DNA of 64,000 nucleotides from the NCBI RefSeq assembly GCF_900496995.4, contig NC_044019.1:3410001-3474000 (forward strand). Direction: 5' to 3'. The stretch comes from Aquila chrysaetos chrysaetos. Lineage: Eukaryota > Chordata > Aves > Accipitriformes > Accipitridae. The position numbers and the translations under genes are program-made. The first letter of the stretch is position 1. Each line of letters begins with the position of its first letter. The notes below the pieces were generated by a model. The model had not been told where the DNA came from. It did not search any database and saw nothing but the letters and a program-made list of their open reading frames with translations. This document shows positions 6,088 to 30,935 of this stretch, piece after piece.

Positions 6088-21895
<15,808 letters not shown>

Positions 21896-22244
21896 GGGGA
21901 CGGGCGGGCGGGAGGGACGGGGGCGGGCCGGGGCCGGGGCCGGGGCCGGGGCCGGGGCCACCCGCGGGGAGGACGGGGCCGAGCCCTGTGCCCTGTGTCC
22001 CTCTGCCAGGCGGGGTTCCCGTCCCCAAGCCGGGTCCCTCCCCTCGCCCCCGGCCCGGGTCTCCATCCCTGTCCCCTGCCCTGCCCATCCACACGCCCCC
22101 GACCCATTTTTGGGTCCCCCGGGCACCCCCCGCCTTTAGGGACCCCCAGCAACCCCCGGGCCGCGTCCACGAGTGGGGTTCTGCCCCGTGGTACCTCTTT
22201 TCTTTTTTTTGGGGGGGGGGGTAGGATGGGGTGGGAAGGATGCT

Positions 22245-22521
22245 GTTGCCATAGCAACGGGGGCAGGAGGGTGAGGAGCGGGGCTGTTGCCGTAGCAACG
22301 GAGAGGAGCGAGTTGCCGTGGCAACCGCAGCAGCAGCCTCCACGAAGGATCTCGTCCTCCCCCATCGCCACGGCAACACGGGGGGGGGGGGGGATGATGA
22401 GATGGGGAGCGGGCGACTGTCTCCGTGGCAACAGAGGGGAGGGAAGGCAGGGAGACGGTTGCCATGGCGACGGCGGGAGGAGGGTATCTCCCTGGCAACA
22501 CACATCCTTTGCCATAGCAAC
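22245..22521. promoter_or_regulatory. array of eight RFX/X-box-like palindromes
   Basis: Eight 14-base sites fit GTTGCCATGGCAAC or near variants: 22245-22258 gttgccatagcaac, 22286-22299 gttgccgtagcaac, 22312-22325 gttgccgtggcaac, 22364-22377 atcgccacggcaac, 22419-22432 gtctccgtggcaac, 22458-22471 gttgccatggcgac, 22486-22499 atctccctggcaac, 22508-22521 tttgccatagcaac. Start-to-start spacing is irregular (22-55 bases) and the sequence between sites is not a simple tandem unit, although ggagg-like filler recurs. The array lies 350-630 bases upstream of the TRIT1 ATG. RFX-family factors bind this palindrome, so a homotypic regulatory cluster is likely. Confidence 0.7.
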
Positions 22522-24179
22522 AAGGAGCAGGAGGCTGCGGGCCGGGGAGGGGTACACGACTCGGGAGGGAAAGGATTATCACCGCCTCGGGAAACTGTCC
22601 TAAAAATTTGCCAGCCCAGGCGTGAAGGCGGCACCGCGCCCGCGACATCCCCCGGGTCCGGCTGAGGCTGCCCCGCGTGAAGCCGGCGCTGGTGGGAAAG
22701 CAGAAGTGGGGTGTTTTTTTTTTGGGGGGGGATGTGGTAGCAGAGGCAAGGGGGTGAGCAGGGCAATGGGGGTTAAAAAAAATAACTGTCAGGCTTGGGG
22801 ATGCTGAATTGTGATGGTTACAGCCGACACTTGCAAATTGCGGCGCTGAACAAATGGGGAGGAAAAGCCCTGTGTGTTTATTGTGTTCACTTAATAGCAC
22901 TGTCAGTCTGCTTTCCTGGTCCTTACCGTGGCAATACGAGAGGAGGCATCTGCTTTAGTATCCAGGAAAGTTTCAGGTGGATATGTATGTATGCATGCCA
23001 CCTTTAAGCAGGAGAACTCAAAGGTATGTGCAAAACTGCAGCTGTTCCTCGGTTTGATTTGAGACCAACTACATTTTTCGCTGGTGATGGTCTCAGTTCA
23101 GACCAAAGGATCTGCACAGCATTTCCAAGAAAGAAAAATGATGTTTTGAACATCCTATGTGCCTTCAGCATGAAAAGAAAAAGCACACCTTACTAAAAAC
23201 CTTATTGGGAGGGTCACCTTGAACTGAAAAAAGACACCAGTCTGCAAGTGTCGGTGTACACAACAAAAATAAACGTTTGAGGGACTGGTACATCTGGGCT
23301 TTGTTTCCTGCGCATGGGCGAGGTGTCAGATTTAGGTCACCCTGCTCCGTGTTTAAGCTGTGGTTCCTGTGAGCACCTTTTAATACAGCTCTAAAACGCT
23401 TTGACACACTGTGATGCAACATGCAGAAAGTGTGAAATGTTGCCGGAACCGAAGGGAACAGGTATTTAAGAGCTTCCGTGCAGTATCATTGCTTTTTAAG
23501 GCTGGCTTCCCGTGGGTGATTGAGTCTCCTGCTGCAGCAGCAGCAGCTCTCTTCTGACCTCTCAGTAGTAACAGGATCCCGTGTCCCTCCTGCATTTAGA
23601 GTAAGACTTTCGCCGCCAGTATGAAGGAAACCCAAAAGCATCAGGTTCAGGGACGGCAGGGAGAATGCACATATATATAATTTCATCCATTCGGCAGATC
23701 TGGGTATATGAAGTTCTCCGATGCCCCTTGAAGCGAGCGGATTGCATTCCCCCCCTCCCTATAGGATTACCAGCAACCACGGCCCTGGCCCCTGACCCGT
23801 GGGGCAGCGATCGCCCCACACCGACTGCCCCGAGCCCCATTAGGGGGGTTTATAGTTACACTAAAGCTTTCTCCAAGCCCAGTGTGGGCTTTCTGCCCCT
23901 CCTTGCCAATAAAGCCACTTAAAAGGAGGAAAAATAATCCAGGTGATTTGTTTCCCTGGCCCCACCACTGTGACCACTTCTGTTTCAAGCGCTGTGAGAA
24001 AGTCAGGACAAAGAGCTCAGTCTTGCTGGCAGCGAGGCAGCCAAGCCCCGGTGCGAAATACATTAATTTCTGTTTGTGTCCAGGACACCCCAAAACACAG
24101 CAGCCAAGCCAGCCCCCCCAGGAGCATCATGGTGTGATGCATGGAAACCCACAGCCGCCTGCATGGAAAAAGCCAACCC
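22522..24179. other. intergenic region between TRIT1 promoter and MYCL 3' end
   Basis: No exon or protein-like frame was recognised. It holds T- and G-runs near 22722-22732, AATAAA-like hexamers on both strands (for example about 23267 on plus) and a CTG/CAG-rich bit near 23528-23550. An X-box half-like ccgtggcaatac lies at about 22926. Nothing else is supported. Confidence 0.5.
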
Positions 24180-25481
24180 AAGCTGTTGCAAACTTATTTA
24201 TTTATGAAGTGTGAGGTAATGAAGAAAGTGCTAAATCCGACCACAGTGTTAACTCTAACGGTTCTCAGCAGGTCAGCGGGGACCCAAGGGTGCTGTCCTG
24301 CAGGGCCACCCCTGCCCGCACCCCGGGGAGGGGACAGGGGACTGTGCCACCCACATACCCCACTGCAGGCTGGGCAGCAGGACAGCACAAGCAGGGGAAA
24401 GCCTCGAAGGCAGCACAGCCCCCCCCCACCATGCACCCAACTTGCCCCTTCCAGCCAGGCTCCCTGCAAAGTCCAAAGCTTCACTGGGGATTTTAAGTGG
24501 CTGCTGGTGAGGGGGCACTCACACAGGTGGGAAAGGGGGTCACAAGCGTGGGAAAGGGGAAAAAACCCCTGTTATTGCAAATGGGTGGTTTGGAGAGCTG
24601 CAAGGGGGGAACCGGCCTCTGCGAGGACTCAGCCAGCCCCTTCCTGATCTCCCTAAAGTGCAGCAGGACTGAGCCCTCCCCCGCAGCAGGAACCCCCCCT
24701 CAAAAAAAAAAAAAAGTTTTTATATATATATAAAAAAAGCAAACTCTTTACCAATACTTCTCAAAAAGTGGTACAAAAATACAGTATAAAAACACAGCCT
24801 CCAGTATAAGACTCGCAGTTACAGCAGCAGTTTCTAGAACATAAAATCCAAGACAAGCTACTGCGTGAAGTGGTAAGAAAGTGAGGTACGGTCCAGCCGA
24901 GCAAGGGGATTGCCCACAGGGTGCTGTTAACCCTGGTGAGAGAGACACCCTGCCGTCGCCATCTCCATGGAGATCCATCCAGAGACGAGCCCTGTGCTGG
25001 GCTCTCTGTGTCTGCCTCTACCTGCTTCCCTGAGCCGAAGCAGACCATGGTTGCTTGGGATTTTTAGGGCGAGATGGGTGCCCAGGGGCAGCTCCCAGTG
25101 ATGCTGTCAGTAGCAGATGGCAGAGAGGGGTGCAGGGGCTGCCAGGGAAGGGGGAATAGAGTTGAGCCTGCAAATTGAAGCAGTCACTTCAGAAAGCTTC
25201 ACAAGGGGGACAGGGGAAATCTTGCAACACCCGGTGCCAAGAAGCCAGCCCCAAGCAGGTGATGCCATGGGGGGGGGGCCCTGCTGTGGCCCCGTTCCCG
25301 CAGCCGGGAGCAGCACCACAGCCACCCCACATGCAGCAACCGCCACATGCTCCCTGGGGCCAACAGTTCAAGAAACAACAACAACAAAAAAAAAAAAAAA
25401 AAAAAAACAAACCTAAAAAAATGTGCAAATTGAGAGGGAGCCAGGGGGTCGTGGGGACCGGGGTGGGGGGCACATTGGGCA
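24180..25481 (-). other. MYCL: MYCL 3' UTR
   Basis: About 1.3 kb follows the MYCL stop on the minus strand and ends at overlapping AATAAA hexamers (plus tttatt at 24197-24202). In transcript order it contains a 22-base U-run (plus A-run 25386-25407) about 75 bases after the stop, and an AU palindrome near 24716-24738 built of UAUAUA flanked by A- and U-runs. Such U/AU-rich tracts are typical binding sites for ELAV-like and decay factors in short-lived mRNAs. That role is inferred. Confidence 0.6.
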
Positions 25482-28400
25482 CTAGTGCCCCTTGAGGTGA
25501 GCAATCCGTTTCAGCAGCTGGGTCTGCCGCAGCCGCAGCTGCCGCTTCTCGGCCGCCATCCTCCTCTCGGCACTGATGAGCGACTGCAGGTACTCGGAGG
25601 ATTTGCTCAGGATCACCACTTTGGGCGTCTTGGGGCAACTGGCGAGCCCGGGCACCTGGTCCCGCAGGGCCAGGAAGCGCGAGCGCAGGTCGTTGCGCCG
25701 CTTGCGCTCCAGGTAATTGTGATTTTTCCTCTTGGCCACGTCCTCGCTGTCGGAGCCGGGGCTGCTGCTGGCTTTCGGCAAGCTGGGCTCGGGCAGCGTG
25801 ATGGCAGGGGCTGGCTCCGCGGCACTTGGTGGCTCGTCCTCAGCCTGCTGGGGTGGCTCCGGTGGCGGACAGGCGTCCGGCGGCGAGCGGGCAGCGTAGT
25901 TGTGCTGCTGCTGGTGGACGGAGATGTGGAAGCGTTTCATGCAGGGGTCCAAGGGGTCGGCACGCAGCGTGATGGTGACCGGCTTCCTCAGGCTGAGCGA
26001 TTGTCTCTTCTCCACCGTCACCACATCGATCTCTTCACCTTCTGCTCAAATTAGACAAAAAATCCCCATGAATTGGGAGCCCCTGGTCACCCCTTTTCAC
26101 CCCGCTGGGTCTCCCCACAGCCCCTGGACGATCTCCCCACTGCTGTCCCACAGAAGTTTGCTCACGCACTGCAAAGTCACTCTGCGACCTCCAGAAGGGA
26201 TTACGTGATTTAAGTGCTTTTCCGATACCATCGCAAAGGAAGGAGCTTTCCCTCCACATTCATGTGCCCAGTCCCCTGAAATTGGGATAGGGCTTTCCTT
26301 TCACCTCAATTCTGCACCAGGAGCAACATGTGTCCAGGATAAAGGATCATCGGATAAGAAACACCCAAACCCACCTGCCCGGGGGGACATGAGGAGCAGG
26401 ATGCTGGGGACCTGGGACAGCCTAACTCCAAAGTTCATCCTGGTCGGGCGCTTTCATGGCCCATTGGAATTGTAAATGAGGGACATGGGGGCAGAACTGC
26501 CCTTTGTTCCCCTTGGCTGCAGCTTCCCACTTCAGTGACTTGTTACTTTTCACAAGCGATAAACCCCATTCAGCCCAGGCTCCCCGGGGACAGAGGGGAC
26601 AATCCCCCGCGGTGCAGGGCGGGGAGGGAGAGGTGAAGGGGTCCCTCCAAAGGACTCGGTGAACCTCGAAGGCATCGCAAGCCCAAGAGTCAGTGGGGGG
26701 AGGTTATCAGAGCTGTGAGCAGCGAGACGCAAATAAAGCATAACTGGACCCAAAGCACCCCGTCTGTTGTCATTGCAGCTTGTCCCCATCCAGTGAATCC
26801 CAGTGGCACGAAGCTGGCCCCTGGGGACAGCGGGGTGACCTGGTTCCAGACACCCCCGCGATCGCTCTCACTTTAGGAACGGGCTTCCACCTTTTTTCTT
26901 CGGCTTTGGGGGAAAATACAGCCACTCACTTAAATGTCCCCCGAGACACTCAGACCCCCACCGGCATCTCGGGCAGAGGCCTGGCCCCCCACCCCTACTG
27001 CGACAGGGCCAGCGGTGGCCGCAGGAGCGGGGCTTCAGGGCACTCTCCTGCTTGTGGCCCCCAACATCCCCCCCCAGGCTCTGGGGGCTCTGCCCAGCAA
27101 GCTTAAGCCACCCTGCTACTGGAGCTACTGGTGGTGGTGGGGGGGCACTCGCTGCCCTCACACATGCCAACGGCCGCGGTCACCAGTGTCACAACCCGAC
27201 CGGTCTCAGCCACGTGTATATACACACACACACACGCACCCCCCCCCCCCCCCCCATTAATAAAAGTCGGACCGCGGAGTCCCGCCCACCCGAGCCACCC
27301 ATTGGCTGTCTGGCGGGGCCGGCCGGCTACCTTACCATCCCATTGGTCGCTAGCCCTGTCCATCAACGCTGCCCCTCTCATTGTTTGCAATCTGTTGCTT
27401 TTTGTTCGGCGCCCACGTGGCGCGGCCGGATCCGGACCGGGACCGAGTCCGGGACCCCACCGGGACCGGGACCCCCTCCGACCCCCCCCAACCCTTCAAC
27501 CGGGCCCCCCCAGTTTGGGTTAAGCCTCTTAACGCCCGCAACCTGCTTACCGTCCCCGGGCTGTTAATGGCATTAAGTCCCCATCCCGCTCCCTGACTCA
27601 CCGGCGCAGGTCGTTGCCACCGGCAGATTTATTAACGGGGTCAAGGCACCGCGGGGCCGTTATCAACGCTTCCACGGCAGCCGAGTCAGCCCGCCTTCCG
27701 TGGGAGAGAGGGAAACAGCCTACGGCCCCCCCCCACCCCGCGCCGGGGCTACGCGGCCGGGGGGGGAGACCCAGGGTGTTTGTAAATAGGGACTGAAAAG
27801 AGGCGGTTATGGCCTGAGATGCGGGAGGGGGGTTCAGAGGCATCCGCTTCCCAGCCCCCTCCCCACGCGGGACAAGCAGGGATACCCCGGGGGTGTCCCG
27901 GGACGAGCCACAGCTGATGCGGGATGTTCCTGCCCGTCACACCGCCTCGGGGGACGCGGCCGCTGCTCCGCGACCTGCCGGCCCCTGGGGATATTTTGCC
28001 TTTTGTCCCGAGGAAAGCCCGTCCCGGGTGGGCTGGGGAAACAGCCGAGGTTACGAGCTGGCAGCAGAGCAGGCTACAACGCTCAAAAAAAAAACCCAAC
28101 CCCAAACTTTCCACGCTGAGCTGCAAACTTGCCCCTCACCAACCTACCCGTGAGGTTCCCGTGGGGTCGGGACGAGGGAGAGGGACCACCAGAGACCCAC
28201 GCAGTGGTCGGGGGGAGCCCCACGCACCCTCCTGTGAGGGGTAGGGATTTCCCGAGCAGAAATCCCGCAGGAAGGGGAGCAGCCGAGCCCGCTTTGTTCA
28301 TGGGGGCCGGGACCGGGACTCGCTTGGAGCCACAACAAAGGCTCTGCCTGGCTGGGAGCCTCCCGGCACGCACATGTGTGGACACGCGTGTCCTCCACGC

Positions 28401-29005
28401 CGGGCTCCCCGTGGGTTTCAGCAAGGTTGGAGGGTGCCTGGGGAGGGGGTGGGGGGGACGGGGACAGCCCGCACCTGGACGGCGGAGAGCTTGGATCCCT
28501 TACCAGAATCGCTTTGGCCCTCGGATCCCGAAGATGCGGGGATCTTGCTCTCGGCCAACGGGCAAAGGAAGACGGCAGCGGGATCCACGCACTCGCTCAC
28601 CGAGCTGCTGAACCCAAAATCCTGCGCGAAGGAAGGTTTGTGGGGGGTGGCCCTCTGCGTGCCCGTGGAAAGTTTCTCTGTCATCGCCTTCTCCAGTCTC
28701 TCCCGGGCTGAAAACCCACTCCACATACAATCCTTGAGGATGAAAGCGCTCAGGTTCCCGAAGATCTCTCCCGTCCCTATGAGATACTCCGGCTCTTCCC
28801 CGGCCAGGCAGTAGCGGGAGAGCCAGCCGGAGCCCTCCGCCCCGGAGCAGCAGCCTTTCTCCCCGGGGGTACCCAGGGGGGAGACGGGGGGGGTAGGAAC
28901 CAGCTCGAACTTCTTCCAGATATCCTCGCTGGGGGCCGTGGAACGATGGAAATCCTCCTCGGCATCGTGGTCGTAGAAGTAGTGTTGGTACGAGTCAAAC
29001 TCCAT
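25482..29005 (-). CDS. MYCL: L-Myc proto-oncogene, bHLH-leucine zipper transcription factor
   Basis: Nuclear factor that heterodimerises with MAX and binds E-box DNA. Two coding exons (minus), 29005-28504 and 26041-25482, join in phase 1 to give 353 residues (human about 364). Myc box I, FELVPTPPVSPLG, is at residues 33-45, and Myc box II, DCMWSGFSARERLEK, at 92-106. The acidic link EGEEIDVVTVEKR spans the splice junction. The bHLH (KRKNHNYLERKRRNDLRSRF...) occupies about 271-323 and the leucine zipper about 325-353. The DNA-contacting H-x3-E-x3-R pattern (HNYLERKRR) is intact. The start ATG at 29005 opens MEFDSYQHYFYDHD, the conserved L-Myc N terminus. An upstream in-frame open stretch lacks a conserved sequence. 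The box I and C-terminal wording is closer to L-Myc than to c-Myc or N-Myc. Confidence 0.96.
27211..27420 (-). promoter_or_regulatory. MYCL: promoter-like island in the MYCL intron with paired CACGTG E-boxes
   Basis: Two perfect Myc/MAX-type E-boxes (CACGTG at 27211-27216 and 27414-27419) flank two CCAAT boxes in minus orientation (plus attgg at 27301-27305 and 27342-27346), a GC box and an AT-rich TTTTATTAAT (plus 27255-27264) 40 bases downstream in the minus direction. The order resembles a minus-strand promoter inside the intron, or an enhancer open to Myc-family feedback. This rests on motifs only. Confidence 0.35.
27221..27254. repeat. CA microsatellite followed by a C-run
   Basis: A run of CA dinucleotides (27222-27234) is followed by gcac and a C-homopolymer of about 16 (239-254 of the 27000 block). 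It adjoins the palindrome gtgtatatacac. Confidence 0.8.
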
Positions 29006-29230
29006 CTCTGCCTGGCGGGCGGCAAAGGCGGGGGATGGGGGGGGGGAGCAGAAAGAAAACGGGGGGCACCCCCCGCCCGATCTGCAGCCCCGCTCAGGAA
29101 GAGGGCACCCCCAGCCCCATGGATGAAGGGGGGGAAGCCCCCGGTGCACCCACCTCCCCCGGCGCTGCGGGTCGCGGCGGCACCAGCCACCGAGCCGGGA
29201 CCGCGGGTGCATTGTTTCCCCCCCCACACA

Positions 29231-29293
29231 CTTATAGCCTGTCTGCGGGGGCCGGCCCCGCCCGCCCGCCAATCCACGGGCTGAGATTTGCAT
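29231..29293 (-). promoter_or_regulatory. MYCL: MYCL promoter: octamer, CCAAT, GC boxes, TATA
   Basis: In minus-strand order: a perfect octamer ATGCAAAT (plus atttgcat 29286-29293), GC boxes (ccgccc-type, about 29255-29270), a CCAAT-type pentamer on the plus strand at 29269-29273, and CTATAAG (plus cttata 29231-29236). The TATA-like box lies 226 bases upstream of the ATG, predicting a start near 29205 and a 5' UTR of about 200 bases if unspliced. An additional noncoding exon further upstream cannot be excluded. Confidence 0.65.
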
Positions 29294-29299
29294 AGAGGG

Positions 29300-30519
29300 A
29301 GGGGCTCAGCCCTATTCCCCGCCCCCCTGGGGGCACGGTGTGAAGGATGCCGCGGCCCCCCCCCCCGGTTCCCCGGTCCTGCTAACGGGGATGCTAACGG
29401 GGCTATTAGCCAGTGACCACCCCGTGCGCTGGGCTGGGGGACCCTCGCTGCCCCCCCCAGAGCGTCCCGCCAGCTCCCGATGCCAGCCCGTCAGAAAGGA
29501 CGGGGTTTGGGGGACCCCCCAGCCTCTGCAAGCGCTAAGGAGGGACTCCTGCAAGGAAGATTTTGGCTGAGGACACCCCAGCACAGCAGTGCCACCAGCC
29601 TGGGGATGTTCGGCTGAGCACGATGGCAAAGCAAACTGGAGAAGTGGGGGACACGTCACAGCCAGACATCACCCACTGCCAGAGACCACCCCTGGGTGCC
29701 CTTTCGCATCCACCTCCTCCTGCCTGGGCATCCCCCCACTTCCCTTTGGGCTCCCAAACCCGCACCAGGACACTGCCACCACCCTCTGCCACAGCCACCC
29801 ATCGCCGCTGCGTGGCTGTTCCCTACGGACATGGGCAGGAGAGTAGCTCCAGCCCCGGGGCAGCAGTGGGGTCACTTAACATTTGTGTCCTGCCCAAGGT
29901 GTTCCCACAGAGGAGCCACCGCAGCCCTCGCAGGTCCAGCTGGGAGCTTCGCCCCCCCAAAACCACCACCCAGCAGGGCTGGGAGCTGCCAGTAAAGCTG
30001 GGACCAACAGGCCAGAGAGAATTCTGAGATAGACTGGGGCACAACAGAGCTGTTCTCGCACACACAGCTCCCACCACCAACACTTTGGTCCATCGTTGCT
30101 GCCCAAACTCGGCTTTGCCCGTGCAGCACCTGGCACATCCAGCCTGGGGGTCCGGAGAGACATGCTGTGTCCTCCGGGACCCAGGCAAGTGCAATGGGAT
30201 GCTGCATCTCTCTACTACCAAGGTCCTTCTAGGAAGGGCAATAAATGTTGTGAAAACACAGCAAGGTTTTCACCTCGAACGCTAATGACCGTGGCATCGT
30301 TACGCACACACACGTGCCGTTACAAAGTCCACCCGGGACGAGCAGATTCCCCCCCAGCAGCGTGCACTAACCCACTTCAGCCCCAGCACCCTCCTTTTGC
30401 CACCCAGTGAAGTTGGGATGACAAGACCTATCCCAGCCGGCGGTGCTGGGAGCTGGGGGGGCTGGGGGCTGGGTCCCCGGGCTGCAGCACCAGCCCTGCA
30501 GGGAGCAATCCGCCCCAGT
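29300..30519. other. intergenic region upstream of MYCL
   Basis: GC-rich at the left, near average to the right. AATAAA occurs at about 30240 on the plus strand without a gene. No coding exon or structured RNA was recognised. Confidence 0.5.
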
Positions 30520-30935
30520 CCAGCGACCAGCATAGCCCAGTACAGCCCAGTGCAGCCTAGCCCAGCAGAGCCCTGCATAGCCCTCTATGGTCCTTCATGG
30601 ACCAGCACAACCCAGTGCAGCCCAGCACAGTCCAGCATGATCCTGCACGGACCAGCACACCCCAGTACAGCTCAGCAAAGCACAGCCCAGTGCAGCCTAG
30701 CCCAGCAGAGCCCTGCATAGCCCTCTATGGTCCTTCATGGACCAGCACAGCCCAGCCCAACACAGTCCAGCTCTTCCCAGCACAGTCCAGTGTGATCCTG
30801 CATGGACCAGCACACCCCAGTACAGCTCAGCAAAGCACAGCCCAGTGCAGCCCAGAATGGACCAGCACAGCCCAGCACGGATCAGCCCAGCCCCGCATGA
30901 ACCAGCACATCCCAGCGCTCCCCAGCACAGCCCTT
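30520..30935. repeat. degenerate CAGCACAGCCCAG tandem repeat block
   Basis: About 410 bases of short units built on ccagcacagcccagtgcag. Superimposed is a longer duplication: the segment from cagtgcagcctagcccagca through tggtccttcatggaccagca appears at about 30549-30607 and again at about 30689-30747, and a gatcctgca(c/t)ggaccagcac segment also recurs. The block is stop-poor in one frame and gives false repetitive proteins. Confidence 0.85.

Follow-up and report, generated by a model that had tools for sequence, protein, structure and literature searches.

A homotypic cluster of candidate RFX sites upstream of TRIT1 in Aquila chrysaetos chrysaetos

Eight X-Box-like Sites Lie Upstream of TRIT1

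The 64,000-nucleotide stretch of the Aquila chrysaetos chrysaetos genome analyzed here (the window) carries eight X-box-like 14-mers at positions 22245-22521, just upstream of TRIT1, a tRNA-modifying gene acting in the isopentenylation of A37. Our reading, to which we give slightly better than an even chance, is that they form a homotypic cluster of candidate RFX binding sites in the TRIT1 promoter region. A preliminary description of this DNA had reported eight such palindromes, and all eight were recovered, with starts at 22245, 22286, 22312, 22364, 22419, 22458, 22486, and 22508, none of them an exact palindrome.

Each site was scored out of 12 for identity with the half-site string GTTRCY/RGYAAC. 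The sites were also compared with two X-box strings found in the available text of PMC2375033, the stringent RTNRCC N1-3 RGYAAC and the degenerate RYYNYY N1-3 RRNRAC, the first of which fits 5/8 sites and the second 7/8. The stringent consensus is fitted on the plus strand by site 1 (GTTGCCATAGCAAC, 22245-22258), site 2 (GTTGCCGTAGCAAC, 22286-22299), site 3 (GTTGCCGTGGCAAC, 22312-22325), and site 4 (ATCGCCACGGCAAC, 22364-22377), and on the minus strand by site 6 (22458-22471; GTTGCCATGGCGAC as read on the plus strand). The three sites that miss it all read on the plus strand. Site 5 (GTCTCCGTGGCAAC, 22419-22432), with a perfect right half and a weak left half, fits the degenerate consensus only, as does site 7 (ATCTCCCTGGCAAC, 22486-22499), the weakest of the eight with four mismatches and 9/12 by half-site identity. 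Site 8 (TTTGCCATAGCAAC, 22508-22521) fits neither published string and has a half-site score of 11/12. The sites at 22245, 22286, and 22312 had been credited with two perfect half sites each. Strictly, this holds for 22312 alone (GTTGCC and GGCAAC); at 22245 and 22286 the right half is AGCAAC, which is perfect only if R is allowed at its first position, as the RFX consensus strings permit (PMC2375033, as available to us).

The site starts are separated by 41, 26, 52, 55, 39, 28, and 22 bp. These spacings share no single period of which they are multiples, and helical phasing of the sites was rejected. The cluster has a GC content of 0.66, with a CpG observed/expected ratio of 0.66 at 22201-22600. 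An identical 16-mer of T and G runs flanks it at 22203-22218 and 22716-22731.

Gene Surroundings and the Candidate Target

The nearest gene start found is that of TRIT1, whose first coding exon (21704-21895, minus strand) encodes the P-loop of a tRNA isopentenyltransferase. The best matches of this P-loop are solved tRNA isopentenyltransferases (E 1.5e-4), and a weak IPPT match, slightly below Pfam's cut-off, was found at 12379-12858. With the first ATG at 21895 (a second, in-frame ATG follows at 21868) and the gene on the minus strand, the cluster lies 350-626 bp upstream of the first ATG. The CpG observed/expected ratio around exon 1 is 0.86 (21601-22000). A tandem repeat with a 51-bp unit, present in 4.8 copies, lies just inside intron 1 (21399-21645).

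MYCL, also on the minus strand, heads towards the cluster, with reading frames containing its Myc_N exon at 28421-29305 and its HLH exon at 25485-26045. The positions of the reading frames of both genes agree with the earlier placement of the cluster, which lies upstream of TRIT1 and farther from MYCL. Upstream of the MYCL Myc_N exon, at 30520-30933, there is a degenerate CCAGCACAGC-type minisatellite. Further along the window is MFSD2A, whose best solved match is PDB 7mjs, which we take to be the chicken MFSD2A protein; one MFSD2A exon differs from it at 2/41 residues.

The cluster could instead be a distal element of MYCL, or the promoter of an unannotated divergent transcript on the plus strand, which we consider improbable. 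The end of the MYCL HLH frame is about 3 kb away, the cluster is GC-rich with the CpG ratio given above, and a review states that RFX1 binds the c-myc X-box and represses c-myc (PMC8106159, as far as its text was available), so that MYCL stays in play. However, the TRIT1 start is only 350 bp away, whereas MYCL has its 3′ end towards the cluster, with the stop codon about 3 kb and the Myc_N frame nearly 6 kb away. MYCL is also absent from the literature matches listed for RFX1, X-box, and promoter, a set of records covered in part. The minus strand has several polyadenylation-like hexamers, including those at 24197 and 22877.

Ten other promoter motifs, taken as commonly known patterns, were scanned at 21700-22700 and yielded no more than a single SP1-like match and two MYB-like ones; the latter read CAACGG and sit at the 3′ edge of site 1 and of site 2. 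A known structured RNA was rejected, with no match in the window to 4227 Rfam families at gathering score. A sigma-70 promoter and terminator scan, which is not meaningful for a vertebrate, gave nothing above chance.

Site Density Exceeds Local Chance

All five stringent sites of the 64-kb window fall inside the 277-bp cluster. Local dinucleotide shuffles (300 shuffles of 361 bp) produced a mean of 0.01 and a maximum of 1, against the five observed. The degenerate consensus has 86 places in the window, of which seven are within the cluster, where the local shuffle mean is 0.31 and the maximum 3. Allowing up to three mismatches gave 11 matches in the window against 5.2 expected, a number reached in 1/100 shuffles; 7 of these 11 sit in the cluster. 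Likewise, every window place with a half-site score of at least 11/12 (5/5) lies in the cluster, as do 7/28 of those scoring at least 10.

These counts bear on the simplest alternative, chance similarity within a GC-rich region. The window does have 21 single sites scoring 10/12 outside the cluster, but no local shuffle in 300 held more than one stringent site. Among 300 sequences generated by a third-order Markov model of the local DNA, none had more than four sites of score 10 or above, against the seven observed, even though such a model learns from the cluster sites themselves. Chance as an account of the number of sites was ruled out by the mismatch, half-site, and stringent-consensus counts, and we regard chance similarity as a whole as very improbable. 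By the shuffles, the Markov null, and the genome background described below, the site density is above local chance, as would characterize a homotypic cluster.

Comparison with the Rest of the Genome

The genome (1.23 Gb in 144 contigs, with the window on contig 16) was searched for the exact palindrome GTTGCCATGGCAAC, which was reported at 29 places, none of them in the window; the reversed control gave none. We fetched 3 kb around each of the 29 places. In 27/29 the palindrome stands as the sole stringent site, with no other within 1.5 kb, and in the remaining two (loci L032 and L034) a second stringent site lies within 40 bp. Outside the cluster, 191,006 bases contained four further stringent sites, two of which are those beside the L032 and L034 seeds. 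This background comprises the 29 loci, what remains of the window once 22201-22600 is removed, and 40 kb of neighboring contig; the 29 seeds themselves were not counted, and L035 and L036 were left out because they overlap L034 and L032. Given 27/29 lone palindromes and four sites in 191,006 bases, five stringent sites in 277 bp are exceptional relative to the sampled parts of the genome, the background set being small and selected through exact palindromes. Together with the consensus matches, the shuffles, and the column test below, this bears out the earlier identification of the sites as X-boxes by motif and as unusually dense.

The two exceptions are mini-clusters that, like the TRIT1 cluster, have X-boxes near one another, but unlike it they hold two or three sites, each group including an exact palindrome. 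In L034 (1468-1530; G000:C106:2001-2063), three X-box-like sites occupy 63 bp; one (score 11) falls short of the stringent consensus. This locus looks like an RFX-type promoter. The trio lies shortly after two CCAAT boxes in the plus-strand reading. In L032 (1463-1514; G000:C100:108670-108721), a pair of full X-boxes, both followed by GG, are spaced 38 bp apart within 52 bp. None of 10 reading frames (39 listed) neighboring these two loci had a Pfam match.

Variation among the Sites and Possible Internal Duplication

Compared with their majority sequence, the eight copies show 17 differences, all confined to 7 of the 14 columns (1, 3, 4, 7, 8, 9, and 12). The variable columns include 1, 3, 4, and 9, positions at which the published string allows several letters. 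The probability of such confinement is 0.0055 for random changes per copy and 0.0078 on the 12 half-site columns, values that ignore both shared descent and the choice of sites by motif likeness. The pattern resembles constraint and is supportive only, because the copies were chosen for their likeness to the motif and may share ancestry.

Shared ancestry is the basis of another explanation, an expanded repeat in which one or a few X-boxes were multiplied by local duplication, for example of a 174-bp three-site unit, with most copies drifting neutrally. We consider this possible but unlikely. Block A (sites 1-3, 22211-22325) and block B (sites 5-7, 22382-22499), both read on the plus strand and possibly copies of one another, align at 67.5% over 120 columns (E 1e-5; 1.5e-4 in a wider self-comparison), although these E-values take in the X-box cores themselves. 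The site spacings within the blocks are alike (41 + 26 in A versus 39 + 28 in B), and sites 1 and 8 with their flanks (22246-22283 and 22509-22547) match at 82% over 39 columns, a match that is not one of the two that the wider self-comparison listed. The top self-alignment score of 48 exceeds the mean of 37.5 obtained when the cores were kept and the spacers shuffled (P 0.037), and the site flanks are slightly more similar to each other than random places in the region are (P 0.024). However, the G-rich, low-complexity spacers inflate similarity, few of the 36 spacer pairs beat their own shuffles, and no TRF array covers the sites. The registers also disagree: one pairs sites 1-3 with 5-7, another site 1 with site 8, and a third, obtained after masking of G runs, site 1 with site 6. 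Since these three registers conflict and run through G-rich spacers, duplication is possible and no firmer than that; the alignments lend weak support to an old local duplication that perhaps helped in part to build the cluster.

Duplication would in any case be compatible with function. If the two blocks do stem from one duplication, their core pairs, which match at 10, 11, and 10 of 14 positions (31/42), are barely better kept than the blocks overall (67.5%), which argues against strong constraint since the duplication.

A Possible Role in TRIT1 Regulation

That RFX proteins bind here, that TRIT1 is their target, and in which direction they act are inferences, and we judge function of the cluster somewhat more probable than its absence. 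RFX dimers of the RFX1-4 type would bind the better sites 1, 2, 3, 4, and 6, with the weaker sites 5, 7, and 8 contributing half-site or low-affinity binding. Jointly, the eight sites would increase occupancy by RFX at this place and tie TRIT1 transcription to the RFX level. Activation appears more likely than repression. RFX factors are capable of both, and RFX1 represses Spata4 through a 14-bp site (PMC3795713, available portion).

The X-boxes of proven human RFX targets are concentrated in the 500 bp nearest the transcription start site (PMC5838959, in the portion available); counted from the TRIT1 ATG, the present cluster spans 350-626 bp. In the available part of a Drosophila study, degenerate upstream X-boxes were equally frequent at control genes and at RFX targets, so that their presence by itself did not predict regulation in that species, while palindromic X-boxes were over-represented at RFX-regulated genes (PMC2375033). 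Neither the human RFX target analysis (PMC5838959) nor a mouse RFX2 study (PMC4498915) names TRIT1 in its main text, as available to us. The literature containing both "RFX" and "TRIT1" had unrelated titles, and no X-box cluster at TRIT1 was reported within the partly covered literature searched.

A more speculative extension, which we hold to be improbable, is that the cluster is an RFX dose-sensing array, perhaps bird-specific, that couples TRIT1 to the RFX program of ciliated or germ cells. Codon-specific decoding capacity would then rise with ciliogenesis or spermiogenesis. If RFX proteins do use the cluster, it would be an extreme natural homotypic X-box array in which the effect of RFX site number on occupancy and output could be studied, and RFX wiring of a tRNA-modification gene not known as ciliary would be suggested. 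If it is merely a drifting repeat, it would usefully illustrate how a regulatory motif can multiply without being functional.

Relation to Known Systems

Searches with a two-site X-box pattern gave no matches in viral contigs and found, among genome contigs, five bacterial ones, which we take to be unrelated to RFX. Loci L006, L007, and L009, from three Myceligenerans species, carry paired GTTGCC-type palindromes 31-32 bp apart, perhaps a bacterial operator. An AT-rich bacterial contig (L005, 6649-6738; OMZC01000028.1, uncultured gamma proteobacterium isolate hRUG862) has X-box-like palindromes as well, three within 90 bp.

Among known RFX systems, the target promoters of Spata4 and Alf resemble the TRIT1 cluster in having a 14-bp X-box in a gene promoter (PMC3795713, PMC2797782), which in Spata4 is associated with a CpG island (PMC3795713). 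In the parts of these papers available to us, one functional site is described for each, versus eight within 277 bp here. One CpG-island promoter has, like the cluster, several neighboring RFX elements, but these are three half sites amid MYB, SP1, and NFY sites, unlike the arrangement at TRIT1 (PMC2797782, same portion). The reporter pEP4, which reports RFX2 activity, likewise carries a row of X-boxes, four from a viral enhancer; it is man-made, whereas the TRIT1 cluster is natural and irregular and has eight sites (PMC2797782). Within the literature search, as far as its sources were available, no RFX cluster of comparable size was named. Homotypic clusters as a general class place many sites for one factor, irregularly spaced, in a short regulatory stretch. 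The TRIT1 cluster shares with homotypic transcription-factor clusters its many irregular one-factor sites in a short stretch, and it is a dense case of this known kind; it does not represent a novel type of system.
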